Positions 1 to 6,112 of a stretch of 6,112 bases of DNA are shown one piece after another (positions within the stretch are counted from its first letter, which is position 1; every line of letters begins with the position of its first letter). The stretch comes from Deltaproteobacteria bacterium (GTDB lineage: Bacteria; Desulfobacterota_B; Binatia; UBA9968). The notes below the pieces were generated by a model. It had not been told where the DNA came from. It did not search any database and saw nothing but the letters and a program-made list of their open reading frames with translations. The stretch is taken from assembly GCA_030620935.1 (NCBI GenBank), contig JAUXIP010000139.1, positions 1-6,112 on the forward strand, in the 5' to 3' direction. Position numbers and translations under genes: made by a program.

Positions 1-272
1 CCGATCACTTGACCAGGCTCTGTCCCTTCTTCCCCTTGGCCGACCGCAGGCACATTTTCCCCATAGATAAAGCGGTACTCTTTCACTCCCTGGATGGGGA
101 CCTTGATGATCCGGTTGCGGTCTTTACCGATGATGGACTCTTCTGCGAGGATATCCGCAATGTTTTCCCGGATAGCATCGCGCACCTTTTGGCGGTGGCG
201 TAAACGATCCCCGGCGCTTCTGTCGCTTCGTTGGGCCGAAGAAGGGTCGTAGGAACGAAAAATGGTATCCAT
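1..272 (-). CDS. yhbH: YhbH/YeaH family protein (DUF444), N-terminal part, cut by the left edge
   Basis: The minus strand reads from an ATG at 272 to the window edge (90 codons) with no stop; it begins [20 protein letters not shown]. The arrangement of a basic stretch ([20 protein letters not shown]), then EESIIG, then [16 protein letters not shown] is the typical N-terminus of the DUF444 family (Bacillus YhbH, E. coli YeaH). The C-terminal von Willebrand-type part of the family would lie outside the window. An in-frame TGA lies upstream and there is no earlier ATG, so the start is well fixed, although no good Shine-Dalgarno is visible. It lies 82 nt downstream of prkA on the same strand with no convincing terminator between, so the two are probably cotranscribed. 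In known genomes this pair usually comes with spoVR/ycgB and is induced in stationary phase, starvation or sporulation. The molecular function is unknown. Family assignment is firm; symbol is by analogy. Confidence 0.9.
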
Positions 273-354: not shown

Positions 355-2286
355 TTAATCCTTCCAAAGATTGTTCGCGGCATACTTCAAAACGACATCG
401 ACGCAGTGCGAACAATAACCGCTGTCCAAAAGATTTTTCACCATCGAGTTGTACTTTTCGCCTTGTTCCTCATCGCGGGTTCTCGCCTTAGTGATGACTC
501 GGCTCAAGTCTCGCACCGAAGTCATCAGCTTTTTTTCAATGGCCTCCTTCAAAGGCTCATAGCTTCGGTAGTCGATGGTCTCTCCCCTGCGGTTGGCTGC
601 CCAAAGATAAGCGATCACCTCCTGGCGAAAGCCGTCCGCTGCCGAGCCGATAATGGCGATCTGTTCCTCGATAGACTTCATAAAGCCTTCGTCGGGTGAG
701 AGCTCTTCCTTCGTGTTTCGGTCCTTGAGTTTGGTTTTATTCACGTAGGCTTCGGCATGGTCCAGGTAGTTTTGGAATAAAGCCTCTGCCTGTTCTTGAT
801 AGGAATAGACGAAAGCTCGGGTAATTTCCTTCTCGAGAATCTCGAGGTACTCTTTGTGGAGCGCATCCTGCAAGAATTCCAGGTATTGCTTTCGCGTATC
901 GTCGGTCAAATCGGCGTCCTTGACCATATTAATAATAGCCTCGCGGACATTGATAGGGTTGATGCAGTTGCCTTCAGCATTGTCGGAAAGGGCATTGTCC
1001 AGGGCCTTCATGATAAAGCGGGTAGAGATGCCGGTCATTCCCTCCCTTTTCGCAGCCTCGCGTAGCTCTTGGAAATCTACTTTCTTGGTCCTTCCTTTCT
1101 CCACGATTTCTTCGCCGTTATAAAGCTTCAGTTTGGTCATCAGGTCGCACTTGCTGGTCGGCTCCAAGCGGGAGAGGATGGCAAACATCGATGCGGTCTC
1201 CAAAGTGTGGGGAGCGACGTGGGCGTGAAAATCCGAGTGGCGGATGATTTTCTGATAAATTTTTACTTCCTCGGAGAGTCGAAGGTTGTAGGGAACCTTG
1301 ACAACGACGATCCGGTCCAAAATGGCTTCATTGGTGTGGTCGGCTTTGAACTTTTGCCACTCAGCTTCATTCGAATGGGCGACAATCACGGTATCAACAT
1401 AAACTAGCCCATGTCTCCCTGGGGCCGGGATCACTTTCTCCTGTGTTGCGGTAATCATGCAATGGAGGTATTCAATCTCGTTCTTGAAGACCTCGATGAA
1501 TTCTACGAGGCCGCGGTTTCCGATGTTGAGAGCGCCATTCAGTTCCAAAACTCGCGGATCGCCTTCGGAGTAAAGATCGAGTTTGGAGATATCTTCGCTG
1601 CCGATGAGAACGGAGGTGTCTTGATTGTTTGGATCGACCGGAGGAACCACGCCGATGCCGACGCGGGCTCGTTTAGAGAATTCGATGGTCCCTACCGGGA
1701 AGTCTTCATATCGCCCGTGGAACTCTTCCTTGAGACGGTAGCGGCAGACCGGGCATAGATCTCCTTCAATATGCCCGCCGAGCATCTTTTCAAATTCCTT
1801 ACGCAGGTGGCGGGGGATCAGATGAAGAGGTTCTTCAAACATAGGACAGCCGTCGATCGCATACAACGGGTCGCTCCCTTCCAGGCCCCGGTGAAGTTTC
1901 TCAATGAGCGAACTTTTTCCGGAGCCCACGGGCCCCATCAGATACAGAACCTGCCGGCTTTCTTCTCCCTTGAGGGATGCGGCGTGGAAATAGCGGACAA
2001 TCTGGGCGATGGTTTTTTCGATGCCGAAGACTTCATCGGCGAAAAAATCATAGACCTTAATGGATTCATCTTTATAGAGCCTCTTGATGCGAGGATCATT
2101 AGTTTCCTGGATATCACGAATGTCGGCTTTTATAATAATGTCGTAGAGGCGAGCATGGGCTAGTCTCGCGATGGAGGGATCCTTTTTGATTGTTTCGAGG
2201 TAGCCCAGGAAGCTTCCCTGCCAAGATTTTACCTTGTGTGAGTCTCGATCCTTACGGATGATGTTCTCAAAGTCCTTATGATTCAT
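355..2286 (-). CDS. prkA: PrkA serine protein kinase / AAA+ protein
   Basis: Complete 643-residue protein, close to the usual PrkA length (about 630-645). The AAA+ part has a Walker A loop GPVGSGKSS at 118-126, a Walker B-like segment GLVEFIEVFK near 259-268, a sensor-1 region VIVAHSNEAEW at 300-310 and a sensor-2-like GISTRF at 419-424. The C-terminal PrkA domain follows and ends in YAANNLWKD. Two cysteine pairs, CPVC (178-181) and CSHC (625-628), could hold a metal. From memory, the first pair is shared with Bacillus PrkA and absent from E. coli YeaG, so this is the Bacillus-type form. The family is described as a cytosolic serine kinase, and later as an ATP-dependent protease, acting in sporulation, stationary phase and nitrogen or carbon starvation. 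The start is supported by GGGAG at 2295-2299, 8 nt before the ATG. It is the first recognised gene of a minus-strand operon with yhbH. The identification is secure; the biochemical activity is debated in the literature. Confidence 0.96.
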   Translation of the reverse strand: MNHKDFENIIRKDRDSHKVKSWQGSFLGYLETIKKDPSIARLAHARLYDIIIKADIRDIQETNDPRIKRLYKDESIKVYDFFADEVFGIEKTIAQIVRYFHAASLKGEESRQVLYLMGPVGSGKSSLIEKLHRGLEGSDPLYAIDGCPMFEEPLHLIPRHLRKEFEKMLGGHIEGDLCPVCRYRLKEEFHGRYEDFPVGTIEFSKRARVGIGVVPPVDPNNQDTSVLIGSEDISKLDLYSEGDPRVLELNGALNIGNRGLVEFIEVFKNEIEYLHCMITATQEKVIPAPGRHGLVYVDTVIVAHSNEAEWQKFKADHTNEAILDRIVVVKVPYNLRLSEEVKIYQKIIRHSDFHAHVAPHTLETASMFAILSRLEPTSKCDLMTKLKLYNGEEIVEKGRTKKVDFQELREAAKREGMTGISTRFIMKALDNALSDNAEGNCINPINVREAIINMVKDADLTDDTRKQYLEFLQDALHKEYLEILEKEITRAFVYSYQEQAEALFQNYLDHAEAYVNKTKLKDRNTKEELSPDEGFMKSIEEQIAIIGSAADGFRQEVIAYLWAANRRGETIDYRSYEPLKEAIEKKLMTSVRDLSRVITKARTRDEEQGEKYNSMVKNLLDSGYCSHCVDVVLKYAANNLWKD

Positions 2287-2796: not shown

Positions 2797-2823
2797 GTTC
2801 CTCAATGATGGGTGTGCAGGGCA

Positions 2824-3177
2824 ATGATTCGATCTCTCGGACGGCTGTTTAGAGCAACCGGCTGCTCCCTGGCCGGATTGCGTGCTGCCTTCCGCTACGA
2901 GGTGGCTTTCCGGCTGGAGATCCTAGTCCTCATGTTCGTTATACCAACCGGGATTTGGTTGGGGGAGGATGGTATCACGCGCGCCCTGCTGATCGGGAGC
3001 TGGCTTTTAGTCATCGTGGTGGAATTAATCAATTCGGCTATCGAAGCGGTCGTCGACCGCATCGGGTTGGAACGGCATGAGCTCGCGGGGCGAGCTAAAG
3101 ACTTGGGATCCGCGGCTGTGTTGTGTGCTATTGTGCTGTTCCTTGTCGTGTGGGTACTGGTCCTTGTCGGCCAATAA
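2824..3177 (+). CDS. dgkA: Diacylglycerol kinase (Gram-negative membrane type)
   Basis: A 117-residue integral membrane enzyme that phosphorylates diacylglycerol to phosphatidic acid with ATP at the inner membrane, recycling diacylglycerol from membrane-derived oligosaccharide or lipid turnover. It follows E. coli DgkA (about 122 aa) along its full length: an amphipathic N-terminus with GLRAAFRYEVAFR (18-30), a first membrane segment about 31-46, a second about 52-66, then the catalytic signature VVELINSAIEAVVDRIG (65-81) and HELAGRAKDLGSAAVL (85-100), and a third membrane segment about 97-115. The residues equivalent to E. coli Glu69, Asn72, Glu76, Asp80, Lys94 and Asp95 are all present with an offset of two. 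The ATG at 2824 fits the family N-terminus; an in-frame GTG at 2812 would add four residues, and neither has a good Shine-Dalgarno. It appears to be a single-gene unit, with no strong terminator behind it; a hairpin at 3163-3190 lacks a U-tract. It is read in the same direction as the pyr operon, which has its own promoter. Confidence 0.94.
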   Translation: MIRSLGRLFRATGCSLAGLRAAFRYEVAFRLEILVLMFVIPTGIWLGEDGITRALLIGSWLLVIVVELINSAIEAVVDRIGLERHELAGRAKDLGSAAVLCAIVLFLVVWVLVLVGQ

Positions 3178-3258: not shown

Positions 3259-3264
3259 ATTCCT

Positions 3265-3304
3265 AAGCCTTTTAACTCAGTCCAGTGAGACCGGGAAGGG
3301 TTTT
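3265..3304 (+). promoter_or_regulatory. PyrR-binding loop (anti-antiterminator) in the pyr leader RNA
   Basis: The stretch at 3279-3292, AGTCCAGTGAGACC, matches the PyrR recognition consensus ARUCCNGNGAGGYU as I remember it at 12 of 14 positions. It folds as expected: GTC (3280-3282) pairs with GAC (3289-3291) around the six-base loop CAGTGA. One A-C mismatch follows and then a C-G pair. After an internal loop, the lower stem CCTTTT (3268-3273) pairs with GGGAAGGG allowing G-U pairs. In the known mechanism PyrR bound to UMP or UTP stabilises this hairpin, which prevents the antiterminator from forming and lets the downstream terminator act. An outer AATTCC/GGAATT match (3258-3263 and 3308-3313) exists in the DNA, but its left arm lies before the predicted transcript start. 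Confidence 0.82.
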
Positions 3305-3346
3305 ATGGGAATTAAGCAGAAAATAGTTGTCTATGTTCGAAGACCT
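3298..3346 (+). promoter_or_regulatory. Plausible antiterminator of the pyr attenuator
   Basis: GGGTTTT (3298-3304), the 3' arm of the PyrR-binding hairpin, can pair without mismatch (G-U allowed) with AAGACCT (3340-3346), which starts the terminator stem. A small ATAG-TTGT-CTAT hairpin (3323-3334) lies between. The pairing would exclude both the PyrR-binding hairpin and the terminator, as a PyrR switch requires. This is a paper fold without energy calculation. Confidence 0.5.
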
Positions 3347-3374
3347 CCTCGGTAACCCGGGGGGGTCTTTTTTT
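3341..3374 (+). terminator. Rho-independent attenuator terminator before pyrR
   Basis: The arm at 3341-3352 pairs with 3357-3368 over 12 consecutive base pairs (two of them G-U) around the loop TAAC, and is followed by a seven-T run (3368-3374). This is a very strong intrinsic terminator placed directly before pyrR. The G-run of its 3' arm (3359-3365) is also the only Shine-Dalgarno-like sequence in front of pyrR, so the stem should block both transcription and translation. Confidence 0.9.
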
Positions 3375-3378
3375 GCCT

Positions 3379-3921
3379 ATGAGACAGGAAAAAAGAATTC
3401 TTTTGCGCGAGGAAGAGGTTAAGCGGACTATTAGCCGCATGGCCCATGAAATGGTGGAGAAATCCGGCAACACACAAGAGCTTGCCTTGATTGGAATCCG
3501 GTCCCGTGGAGCCTATCTGGTCCGACGAATCGCGCAAAAGATGGAGGAACTTGGAGGAGTAGCCCCTCTTGTAGGCGTCATTGATGTTACTCCATATCGT
3601 GACGACAGAGATAAGAGAGAAATACCGACAAGCCCTCTCCCGGTAGAGGTTCCGGTTTCTGTGGATGAAAGAACAGTCATTTTGGTCGATGACGTAATAT
3701 ACACAGGCCGCACCATACGTGCGGCGCTGGATCGGATTGCCCATATGGGAAAACCTAAAAGAGTCCTTGTCGCTATTTTGGTCGACCGAGGAGACCGGGA
3801 GTTGCCGATCAAGGCGGATATCGTGGGGAAAAATGTTCAAGTTAATGACTCAGAGAGGGTGAATGTCTTGCTCCAAGAATCGGATGGAGTGGATCAGGTG
3901 ACAGTCACAAGCAATCCATAA
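3379..3921 (+). CDS. pyrR: PyrR, pyr operon mRNA-binding attenuation regulator / uracil phosphoribosyltransferase
   Basis: A 180-residue protein (181 in B. subtilis) that binds pyr leader RNA when UMP or UTP is high and promotes termination; many members also convert uracil and PRPP to UMP. The PRPP-binding signature VILVDDVIYTGRT is at 100-112, YRDD at 73-76, and IGIRSRGAYLVRRIA at 38-52. The N-terminal SRMAHE (19-24) corresponds to TRIAHE of B. subtilis, where Thr18, Arg19 and His22 have been tied to RNA binding; here they are Ser, Arg and His. In the C-terminal contact region, Arg141 and Lys152 equivalents are kept (R140, K151), Arg146 is Lys, His140 is Asp and Thr156 is Val. The ATG at 3379 gives the best N-terminal length; an in-frame TTG at 3373 is better spaced (7 nt) from the G-run and cannot be excluded. 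It is the first gene behind its own attenuator, so autoregulation is expected. The residue roles are from memory. Confidence 0.95.
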   Translation: MRQEKRILLREEEVKRTISRMAHEMVEKSGNTQELALIGIRSRGAYLVRRIAQKMEELGGVAPLVGVIDVTPYRDDRDKREIPTSPLPVEVPVSVDERTVILVDDVIYTGRTIRAALDRIAHMGKPKRVLVAILVDRGDRELPIKADIVGKNVQVNDSERVNVLLQESDGVDQVTVTSNP

Positions 3922-3956: not shown

Positions 3957-5930
3957 TTGAAAAAGCGTGATTTCATAACCATCGCAGATCTCAGCGACGA
4001 GGAGATCGAGGAGATCTTTCATCTAGCCGATTCCATGGGCACATTAGACCGTGACGATCCTGATGCCAGAGGTTGTACTGGGAGGATTATGGCTACCCTT
4101 TTTTATGAACCGAGCACCAGGACTCGCCTCTCTTTTGAGTCCGCGATGCAACGACTGGGAGGATCCGTCATCAGTTCCCCCGACATGAAATCTTCTTCCG
4201 CAGCCAAAGGAGAAAGTATTGCGGATACGGCTAGGGTCGTCTCCAGCTATGCCGATATCCTGGTGGTGCGCCATTACTGGGACGGGGCGGTGCAGGCCAT
4301 GGCGGAGTATGCCGATATCCCTGTGATCAATGCCGGCGACGGGAGTCATGAGCACCCGACTCAAACCCTTTGCGACCTCTACACCTTGAAGAAGGAGAAG
4401 GGGGCCCTTAAAGGTTTGACTGTGGTCATTTCCGGTGACCTCAAGTACGGAAGAACCATCCATTCCTTGATCTACGCATTGGCACGCTTTGGGGTCAATG
4501 TGGTGACCTTAGCGGCCAATGGGATGGAGCTTCCCCAATACGTTATCGAGAAGTTGGAAACGGAATACCATTACAGTTTAGCCCCAGTAGCTTCGGATGA
4601 TCTTCACGCTGCGGTTACGGAAACCGATGCCATCTATCTGACCCCCAGCCAGCCCCACCAATTAGCGCTTTTTACCCAGGTAGATTCGGACATCCAAAAC
4701 CAGTTGACAACGATGGTATCCGGAGTCAAGTTCGACGCCTTCTATGTCACCCGTAAGCAGAAAGAGCGGATGAAGGAGGGAGATGCAGAAAACGATGGAG
4801 ACTACCCCAGAATTGACGAAAGATTCCTTAAGGAGAAACGCTTCAAGGATACCGTGGTCATGCATCCTCTGCCGCGTGTGGATGAGCTCTCTCAGGAGAT
4901 CGATAAAGATCGCAGAGGCATTTACTTCAAACAGGCTGCCTACGGCGTTCCGATCAGGATGGCTCTACTCAAGTTCCTGTTTGATGCGCTGAAAAAGGGG
5001 AGATACCGGCAGGTGCAGAAAAGATTTCCCCTGTATGAGAGTCCTGAGGCTCTCGGTCCTCAATGTGTCAATTCGAAATGCGTGACGCGTAACGAGGTTG
5101 GCTCTACCCGTCCAAGATTCGATGTGCTTTTCACCGGCCCAGGAGGCAGTTTGATCTTAAGATGCTTCTATTGTGATCATCAGCTCAAGGTCCAATATAT
5201 GGGACATACGAGGTCGAGAAGATACTGTCACTACGACATCATGCTGGGGGAAACTGTGCGGGATTGGCTGAGTCATGGAGAATTGGCGATCTTTGATTCT
5301 ATCAAACAAGCTGAAGAACTGGGATACGAGCCTTATAAGATCGGCCCACAACGGAACATCATGGATGAGGCAGGAATCCGGATGGCAATTCAAAAGATTA
5401 GCCAACAGATTCTTAAGGATGTGGCAGATCCGGACCGCATACTGATTCTTGGAATTCGCTCCAAGGGTGTAGTTCTCGCTAAGCGCATAGCTGCGGAGTT
5501 GGATAAGCAACAGGACCGCAAGGCCGAGGTGGGGGAGATCGAGATATATGGCGCAGGAGATGATCTCCGCAGACTTCCCCCGGATCCAGAACCCTCGCCC
5601 TTAAATCTGAAAGATCGTGCGGTGATTTTGGTCGATGACGTTATCCATACGGGAAGGACGGTTAAGAATGCCTTGAGCATCATTTTTAAATCCGGCCGAC
5701 CCCAGTCTGTACGTCTAGCCGTCTTGATCGACCGGGGCCATCGAGAGTTGCCTGTCAAACCCAACTACGTGGGAAAACACATCCCAAGTTCTGAGAGAGA
5801 AAGAGTCCGCGTAAAGCTGCGCGAGGTGGAACAAAACGAAAAGGATAAGGTCGTGATCTACTCGATTGTAAACCCGGATGCCAGCCACCAGGAGTCGGTC
5901 GTCAGCTCTAATATCGAGGCTGAGAGCTGA
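3957..5930 (+). CDS. pyrB: Fused aspartate carbamoyltransferase: PyrB catalytic chain + PyrI-like zinc domain + PyrR-like domain
   Basis: One uninterrupted 657-residue frame carries three parts. Residues 1-345 are a full PyrB, which makes N-carbamoyl-aspartate from carbamoyl phosphate and aspartate: STRTR (53-57), the Ser/Lys loop SAAK (81-84), R105, HPTQ (133-136), R166 in KYGRTIH, VTRKQKER (264-271) and HPLPR (303-307) are all present. Residues 370-410 resemble the zinc domain of the regulatory chain PyrI: CVNSKC (370-375) and CFYC (403-406), the same Cx4C and Cx2C pattern as E. coli CPNSNC and CKYC. Residues 471-640 are a second PyrR-like domain with ILGIRSKG (497-504), the PRPP loop VILVDDVIHTGRT (556-568) and DRGHRELPV (592-600). 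Residues 411-470 match nothing I know. The PyrI nucleotide-binding domain is absent. The TTG start has GGAG 9 nt upstream; no earlier start is in frame and the next ATG would cut into the enzyme. It lies between pyrR and carA. PyrB and PyrR parts are certain, the zinc domain likely, and the regulatory role is inference. Confidence 0.95.
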   Translation: MKKRDFITIADLSDEEIEEIFHLADSMGTLDRDDPDARGCTGRIMATLFYEPSTRTRLSFESAMQRLGGSVISSPDMKSSSAAKGESIADTARVVSSYADILVVRHYWDGAVQAMAEYADIPVINAGDGSHEHPTQTLCDLYTLKKEKGALKGLTVVISGDLKYGRTIHSLIYALARFGVNVVTLAANGMELPQYVIEKLETEYHYSLAPVASDDLHAAVTETDAIYLTPSQPHQLALFTQVDSDIQNQLTTMVSGVKFDAFYVTRKQKERMKEGDAENDGDYPRIDERFLKEKRFKDTVVMHPLPRVDELSQEIDKDRRGIYFKQAAYGVPIRMALLKFLFDALKKGRYRQVQKRFPLYESPEALGPQCVNSKCVTRNEVGSTRPRFDVLFTGPGGSLILRCFYCDHQLKVQYMGHTRSRRYCHYDIMLGETVRDWLSHGELAIFDSIKQAEELGYEPYKIGPQRNIMDEAGIRMAIQKISQQILKDVADPDRILILGIRSKGVVLAKRIAAELDKQQDRKAEVGEIEIYGAGDDLRRLPPDPEPSPLNLKDRAVILVDDVIHTGRTVKNALSIIFKSGRPQSVRLAVLIDRGHRELPVKPNYVGKHIPSSERERVRVKLREVEQNEKDKVVIYSIVNPDASHQESVVSSNIEAES

Positions 5931-5955: not shown

Positions 5956-6112
5956 ATGAAAGCGATATTGGCATTGGCTGATGGTCGCGTTTTTGAAGGG
6001 CGCTCTTTCGGAGCCGAAGGGGAAGCTGTAGGAGAAGTCGTGTTTAATACCAGCATGACCGGCTACCAGGAGATCCTGACCGATCCGTCTTACGAAGAAC
6101 AGATGGTCGCCA
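5956..6112 (+). CDS. carA: Carbamoyl-phosphate synthetase small (glutaminase) chain, N-terminal part, cut by the right edge
   Basis: From the ATG at 5956 the frame stays open for 52 codons to the window end: [20 protein letters not shown], then [21 protein letters not shown]. This is the conserved N-terminal domain of CarA. The glutaminase domain with its catalytic Cys and His would lie outside the window. CarA releases ammonia from glutamine and feeds CarB, which makes carbamoyl phosphate, the substrate of the PyrB encoded just upstream and a precursor for arginine. It starts 25 nt after the pyrB stop with no convincing Shine-Dalgarno; a TGATG overlap opens a four-codon frame (MAEN) in between, so translational coupling is possible. 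It is probably part of the PyrR-attenuated operon. The identification is secure despite the truncation. Confidence 0.95.

Follow-up and report, generated by a model that had tools for sequence, protein, structure and literature searches.

A three-part aspartate carbamoyltransferase with a PyrI-type zinc domain and a PyrR-derived domain as a candidate nucleotide sensor

We found that one open reading frame in the window (the whole stretch of 6,112 nucleotides analyzed here) encodes an aspartate carbamoyltransferase (ATCase) followed by a PyrI-type zinc domain, a linker and a PyrR-derived domain. The existence of this three-part fusion was confirmed, and the fused ATCase is a conserved variant. 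ATCase catalyses the first committed step of pyrimidine synthesis, and here it probably carries a repurposed PyrR as an on-board nucleotide sensor. From the protein sequences we lean towards the explanation that this is an ATCase with a built-in regulatory arm, in which the PyrR-derived part would be the effector-responsive domain. The interpretation given in the original prediction is, as a whole, partly supported.

Domain organization of the fused protein

The fusion frame (Table 1) opens with TTG, closes with TGA and holds 657 uninterrupted codons ahead of the stop. In the Pfam search of the window protein, OTCace_N was matched at residues 4-145 (E 1.8e-51), OTCace at 152-340 (E 3e-23), PyrI_C at 369-411 (25.7 bits against a cut-off of 23.4, E 1e-5) and Pribosyltran at 467-610 (E 2.5e-20). 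With the NCBIfam models, TIGR00670 (ATCase) scored 300.4 bits (cut-off 236.95), NF002032 scored 290 bits (cut-off 263) and the PyrR model NF003549 scored 166.7 bits on residues 465-634 (cut-off 138). The predicted three-part architecture is thus borne out, with OTCace_N/OTCace, PyrI_C and a PyrR model in one frame, and the PyrI-like four-cysteine domain, which scores above its cut-off, had been placed correctly together with its cysteines. The PyrI nucleotide-binding N domain (PF01948) gave no Pfam match in the window protein at E ≤ 1.

On the fused domain of the loci L005, L068 and L066, NF003549 scored 137.5, 122 and 137.5 bits, respectively, against the cut-off of 138, as for a domain that is derived from PyrR but divergent. 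The other four PyrR models of NCBIfam stayed below cut-off for both the fused part and the window's free PyrR. In a sequence search, the PyrR structures 1a3c and 1non matched the fused PyrR domain with 134.2 and 119.1 bits.

The leader RNA, the separate pyrR, the fusion gene and then a carA-like frame look like a pyrimidine operon. At the other end of the window (positions 3-272, minus strand) lies the start of a gene that we take to be YeaH/DUF444-like.

Table 1. Coordinates of the features in the window.
Feature	Position	Strand	Basis or remark
prkA-type gene (PrkA serine kinase)	355-2286	-	Pfam
dgkA	2812-3177	+	Pfam
PyrR-binding leader RNA with terminator hairpin, 5' of pyrR	3264-3375	+	RF00515
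Separate pyrR, 180 aa from ATG	3379-3921	+	NF003549
Three-part fusion, 657 aa: ATCase, PyrI_C zinc domain, linker, PyrR-derived domain	3957-5930	+	TTG start
ATCase catalytic chain, residues 1-340	3957-4976	+	Pfam and NCBIfam
PyrI_C-type zinc domain, residues 369-411, C370/C375/C403/C406	5061-5189	+	Pfam
Linker, residues 413-464	5193-5348	+	
PyrR-derived (pseudo-PyrR) domain, residues 465-640	5349-5876	+	
AGDD, residues 533-536, at the YRDD-loop site of free PyrRs	5553-5564	+	
Kept PRPP/5'-phosphate loop DDVIHTGRT, residues 560-568	5634-5660	+	Fused PyrR part
carA start (carbamoyl-phosphate synthase small subunit), runs off the window	5956-6112	+	Reading of translation

Conservation of the fusion gene

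The same architecture was found in related genomes, at 22 distinct loci including the window (the others being L001-L006, L061-L071, L072 together with L077, and L073-L075). A stop or frameshift between the PyrB and PyrR parts would have spoken against a single protein; the frame is complete, including its stop, at 20 of the 22 loci. The L003 frame leaves its contig after residue 634 and the fusion gene of genome G127 is split across two contig ends. The genome search counted a TGA inside the matched span in G185; despite this TGA, the frame at that locus (L070) is 650 aa long and spans the whole PyrR part.

The best 120 relatives listed in a protein search show 70-100% identity, and all carry both ATCase domains and a phosphoribosyltransferase domain in the precomputed Pfam column. 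By hand count, PyrI_C is missing from that column in 40 of the 120. In an hmmscan (E ≤ 0.001) of 56 sampled proteins, PyrI_C was matched in 56/56, in line with the zinc domain predicted at residues 370-410. Pribosyltran was matched in 54/56, and the remaining two (L079 and L080) are two-part proteins. Most of the source names listed for the relatives read plainly "aspartate carbamoyltransferase", which conceals the fusion. A second search with the divergent L005 protein as query added 81 proteins. From the 201 pooled relatives, the 194 over 600 aa were scored (7 shorter rows were excluded); these include the window's own protein and those of the loci analyzed. The pattern C-x4-C...C-x2-C and the loop motif DDVxx[ST]GxT in the last part are each present in 194/194, and [YF]RDD is present in the PyrR part of none (0/194).

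In the locus alignment, C370, C375, C403 and C406 are cysteine in 22/22. In the ATCase part, 15 positions were checked in the 21 loci with an aligned catalytic part, and all are identical in 21/21 (S53, T54, R55, T56, R57, S80, K84, R105, H133, Q136, R166, R266, Q268, P304 and L305). By comparison with E. coli ATCase, we presume that these positions have carbamoyl-phosphate and aspartate roles. The complete catalytic chain with its key residues is therefore upheld, TIGR00670 also being above cut-off.

The dN/dS ratio of the fused PyrR part was 0.10-0.26 in seven unsaturated close pairs (the pairs share loci, and an eighth was saturated). In close pairs it was 0.07-0.19 for the catalytic part and erratic (0.01-0.58) for the short zinc part. 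The low dN/dS of the PyrR part and its residue pattern indicate that it is not a decaying fragment.

Distribution among genomes

The fusion is present in 18 of 58 genomes drawn from the class of the relative G002. PyrI_C was matched in exactly these 18, inside the fusion frame. The PyrI nucleotide domain PF01948 was matched in 0/58, with 7 of 14 control genomes positive, in agreement with the predicted loss of this module. The alternative that the nucleotide domain is encoded elsewhere in the genome was rejected, as none was detected in the 58 genomes.

An ATCase-like match at E ≤ 1e-25 was obtained in 54/58 genomes. In the 18 fused genomes this match is of the long type with 55-83% identity; the other 36 have matches of 33-45% only. 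A single match of this grade is found in 17 of the 18 fused genomes, and the second match of G002 is weak (36% identity, query residues 1-198, in a 314-aa frame). The fusion is probably the only ATCase of its bacterium. Since 40 of the 58 class genomes have no fusion match, pyrimidine synthesis as such does not require the arm.

In two overlapping draws from the phylum (148 and 99 genomes) the fusion was found, among the matches listed, only in G002, G127 and G005, all of one class. A scan of genome contigs gave six loci, all titled Deltaproteobacteria; its patterns were taken from one sequence, so distant loci are missed. The names given for the best 120 relatives are Candidatus Binatia (7), Deltaproteobacteria (2), Verrucomicrobiae (1) and "bacterium" (1), and the L005 search adds at least one relative named Deltaproteobacteria.

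Two-part PyrB-PyrI_C relatives

Outside the class of G002, the genomes G009 and G041 encode proteins with the zinc domain and without PyrR. The G009 protein (468 aa) is followed by a pyrC-like frame and the G041 protein (422 aa) by a carA-like frame, both neighbours being assigned by reading. A search with the G009 protein gave, among the matches listed, 120 relatives (P0202-P0321) of 452-499 aa, all PyrB plus PyrI_C. Pribosyltran is absent from the Pfam column of these 120, and the cysteine pattern is found after residue 330 in 118 of them. The few named ones are Chloroflexota (7) and Dehalococcoidia (3). Together with L014/L079 and L016/L080, they make up a set of two-part proteins of 422-499 aa without PyrR.

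The linker of the fusion (residues 413-464) occupies the place of an Ada_Zn-like tail in the two-part relatives. PF02805 (Ada_Zn_binding) was matched below threshold in P0208 (E 0.016) and P0214 (E 0.0095) and was not matched in five others scanned. Neither PF02805 nor any other Pfam domain was matched in the linker of the window, where the best PDB sequence match has E 0.87, and the linker was rejected as a known domain.

The stretch from HPTQ to TRxQxER measures 130-132 residues in 21 fused proteins, 124-134 in 30 two-part proteins, 114 in G041 and 93-98 in nine short PyrBs in which both motifs were found. The window ATCase is about 35-40 residues (roughly 38) longer than short PyrBs between H133 and R266 (4353-4754). 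This extra length is common to the fused and the two-part proteins.

Phylogeny of the catalytic and PyrR parts

In the tree of PyrR domains (where row O_L015_774_m is the same gene as L072_S), the 22 fused copies group in one clade (support 100/100) that excludes both the free neighbours and other PyrRs. The fused and free sides show the same three subgroups of 9, 6 and 7 loci, as expected from one old event followed by joint descent. The fused and free PyrRs of the window share 36% identity. The idea that the fused PyrR is a recent copy of its neighbour is not supported, given this identity and the separate, well-supported sides of the tree.

The catalytic-chain tree includes 15 of the 22 fused proteins. 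They form one clade (99/93) within a 30-row clade of PyrB-PyrI_C proteins (100/99); the position of the long-branched G041 protein is unsure. The nearest kin of the fused catalytic part are PyrB-PyrI_C proteins of about 450-500 aa without PyrR, and for this reason PyrR was probably added rather than swapped in. The simplest reading of this tree, which has no outgroup root, would be a single addition of PyrR to an ATCase that had the zinc domain and lacked the PyrI nucleotide domain. The predicted replacement of the nucleotide module by PyrR was probably a later addition instead, the nearest relatives being two-part proteins.

The separate pyrR gene and its leader RNA

A separate pyrR lies directly upstream of the fusion at 22/22 loci, the interval between the two genes ranging from an overlap to 98 bases. 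In the window, the free PyrR scores 198.4 bits with NF003549 (cut-off 138) and has YRDD and R15/R19. Its leader matches the PyrR-leader RNA family RF00515 with 54.1 bits, the gathering score being 54. A hairpin was located at 3339-3370; taken by themselves, such hairpins are no commoner in this region than expected by chance (3 found vs 3.4 expected).

RF00515 was matched at 16 of the 22 loci. Five are at gathering score (window, L001, L006, L063 and L065). Eleven others (L002, L004, L005, L061, L062, L064, L066-L069 and L077) are below or bordering it, on the same strand and at the pyrR start, with E from 0.00012 to 0.17. RF00515 was not found in L003, L070, L071, L073, L074 and L075. These matches make transcription control by the free PyrR likely at most loci, which leaves the fused copy free for another task.

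The phosphate-loop residue T110 is R in the free PyrR of 8/22 loci (L001, L002, L004, L006 and L061-L064), all of them from the subgroup to which the window belongs; the window's free PyrR has T. The fused copies have S or T at this position in 22/22. An arginine here may weaken nucleotide or PRPP binding by the free PyrR, and the free and fused PyrRs may have split ancestral duties. In L003 the free pyrR (L003:4547-5338) is short of about 25 residues, starting at the PRPP loop, which may be a real loss or an assembly error. A third PyrR-like gene was seen elsewhere in three of eight fused genomes searched (G002:C39, G164:C40 and G180:C53).

None of the 21 fused genomes (0/21) has a uracil phosphoribosyltransferase gene upp that scores above the family cut-off; weak partial matches are all that 13 of them gave. 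In the controls the upp model matched 14/14, above cut-off in 11. If the fused genomes salvage uracil at all, PyrR may be responsible.

Proposed mechanism

The zinc domain would hold the arm against the catalytic chain, the role it has in PyrI. PyrR proteins work as dimers, and the domain derived from them could bridge two catalytic trimers where the PyrI dimer would otherwise be. Occupation of the retained loop by PRPP or a uridine nucleotide (UMP/UTP) would then switch the ATCase between states of lower and higher activity. Both paralogues would respond to one pool, with the free PyrR acting on transcription and the fused PyrR on the enzyme. Like the original prediction, we infer that the ATCase would be under feedback control through its PyrR part. 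There is about an even chance that this is a new allosteric module of ATCase, in which a duplicated PyrR, stripped of RNA binding and catalysis, is set behind a PyrI zinc docking domain to give two paralogous sensors of one pool.

B. subtilis PyrR binds RNA as a UMP-bound dimer, and this UMP/UTP response of the dimer is antagonized by GMP/GTP (PMC7430163). ATCases are known in which three regulatory dimers, either separate or fused, connect two trimers (PMC4581275).

Residues kept and lost in the fused PyrR domain

The comparison was made in B. subtilis numbering over the 51 columns conserved in at least 20 of the 22 neighbouring free PyrRs. Of these columns, 22 are also kept in the fused copies (in at least 20 loci), including G38, G43, D105, D106, G111, T113, D137, R138, G139, R141 and P144. 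Another 22 columns are lost (same letter in 11 loci or fewer), including R15, R19, E26, R42, Y72, R73, D75, R112, R115, A147, D148, N153 and G171. Sixteen columns are conserved in the fused copies only, M8, H140, Y149, P155 and Y178 among them. The roles of single residues in PyrR are taken, as we understand them, from the PyrR literature and related phosphoribosyltransferases.

The loss of the YRDD loop and of 22/51 columns would also be expected if the PyrR-derived domain were a structural arm only, which joins trimers or stabilizes the enzyme and has no effector; P155, Y149 and Y178 could then be contact residues. We consider this unlikely. D105, D106, G111 and T113, which presumably bind ribose phosphate as in phosphoribosyltransferases, are invariant in the 22 fused loci, and together with the loop motif found in all 194 relatives they are what a pure scaffold would not need.

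The retained PRPP loop and the lack of an upp match above cut-off in the fused genomes could point to a bifunctional enzyme, in which the domain is still a uracil phosphoribosyltransferase and adds salvage to de novo synthesis. This is improbable, as the YRDD loop of the active site is absent from all 194 fused proteins, R42 is kept in only 5/22 loci and R112 is replaced by W in 13/22. The adjoining free PyrR has Y/F-R-D-D in 22/22 and could itself serve salvage. With W in place of R112 in 13/22, the ligand and its affinity may differ from those of PyrR.

Still less probable is a fused domain that continues to bind pyr leader RNA, so that the enzyme regulates its own operon. Leader RNA matches do lie upstream, and the fused copies retain R141, K/R146 and K152, which we take to be part of the RNA-binding face of PyrR; on sequence, the loss of RNA binding is therefore not complete. 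Against this, R15 is kept in 5/22 and R19 in 2/22 fused loci (both 22/22 in free PyrRs), and position 27 is D/E in 21/22 fused copies vs K/R in 19/22 free ones. Over reference residues 9-30 the mean net charge is -4.4 in fused vs -0.2 in free copies, and a free pyrR is available at all 22 loci.

An artefact (chimeric assembly or decayed read-through fusion) can be dismissed with near certainty: the six relatives with record titles are all metagenome-assembled genomes, but misassembly and frameshift are rejected by the same complete frame in 20/22 loci, contigs of up to 7.0 Mb (the length for one relative), low dN/dS and a single clade in both trees.

The loss of YRDD and of the basic residues, the kept PRPP loop and the separate pyrR upstream indicate that the fused domain is not an ordinary PyrR. 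The predicted full-length PyrR-like domain is there, derived from PyrR and with its PRPP loop, but it is divergent, with YRDD, R15, R19 and others gone. Most likely the fused copy would be a ribose-phosphate-binding, non-catalytic domain that has lost RNA reading and now acts as the allosteric domain of the ATCase. It would then be a clear natural example of how a regulator of transcription became an allosteric domain of an enzyme. Because the fused and free copies adjoin, the residues for RNA, catalysis and sensing are separable by swaps and point changes.

Comparison with known ATCases and PyrR proteins

The fusion has the catalytic chain family and the zinc domain in common with the E. coli PyrB/PyrI holoenzyme, in which PyrI, with its nucleotide domain, forms a chain of its own. 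Unlike the fusion, the E. coli holoenzyme has no PyrR. A PyrB-PyrI fused ATCase of T. maritima was reportedly described by Chen et al. in 1998. It likewise has catalytic and regulatory parts in one chain, with a PyrI zinc domain. T. maritima, a control here, matches PF01948; the window fusion does not and has the PyrR-derived domain attached. The NCBIfam model NF009916, which we take to represent the T. maritima-type PyrBI fusion, gave only 92.1 bits with the window fusion against a cut-off of 800.

The two-part PyrB-PyrI_C proteins share with the fusion the longer aspartate domain, the zinc domain and the place of the linker; they end in a tail weakly like Ada_Zn_binding and have no PyrR domain. 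The PyrR attenuation protein/uracil phosphoribosyltransferase (B. subtilis 1a3c and B. caldolyticus 1non) resembles the fused domain in sequence and likewise has the PRPP loop. The fused domain differs from it in being attached to an enzyme and in having lost the YRDD loop and the N-terminal basic residues.

ATCases that are fused or linked to a pseudoenzyme are already known kinds. Partners and regulators of ATCase include PyrI, dihydroorotase-like chains and the CAD fusion (PMC4581275), and in plants UMP (PMC7878868). Among the open-licence papers listed in literature searches, we found none that describes a PyrB-PyrI-PyrR or PyrB-PyrR fusion. The P. aeruginosa ATCase partners an inactive dihydroorotase chain (PMC7053772). 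There too, an inactive relative of another pyrimidine protein serves as the ATCase partner; that partner is a separate DHO-like chain and not PyrR, unlike in the fusion. ATCase is a textbook allosteric enzyme, to which a PyrR-derived arm would add a further regulatory solution. With its history and its neighbouring paralogue, the module offers a specific case that is easy to test.
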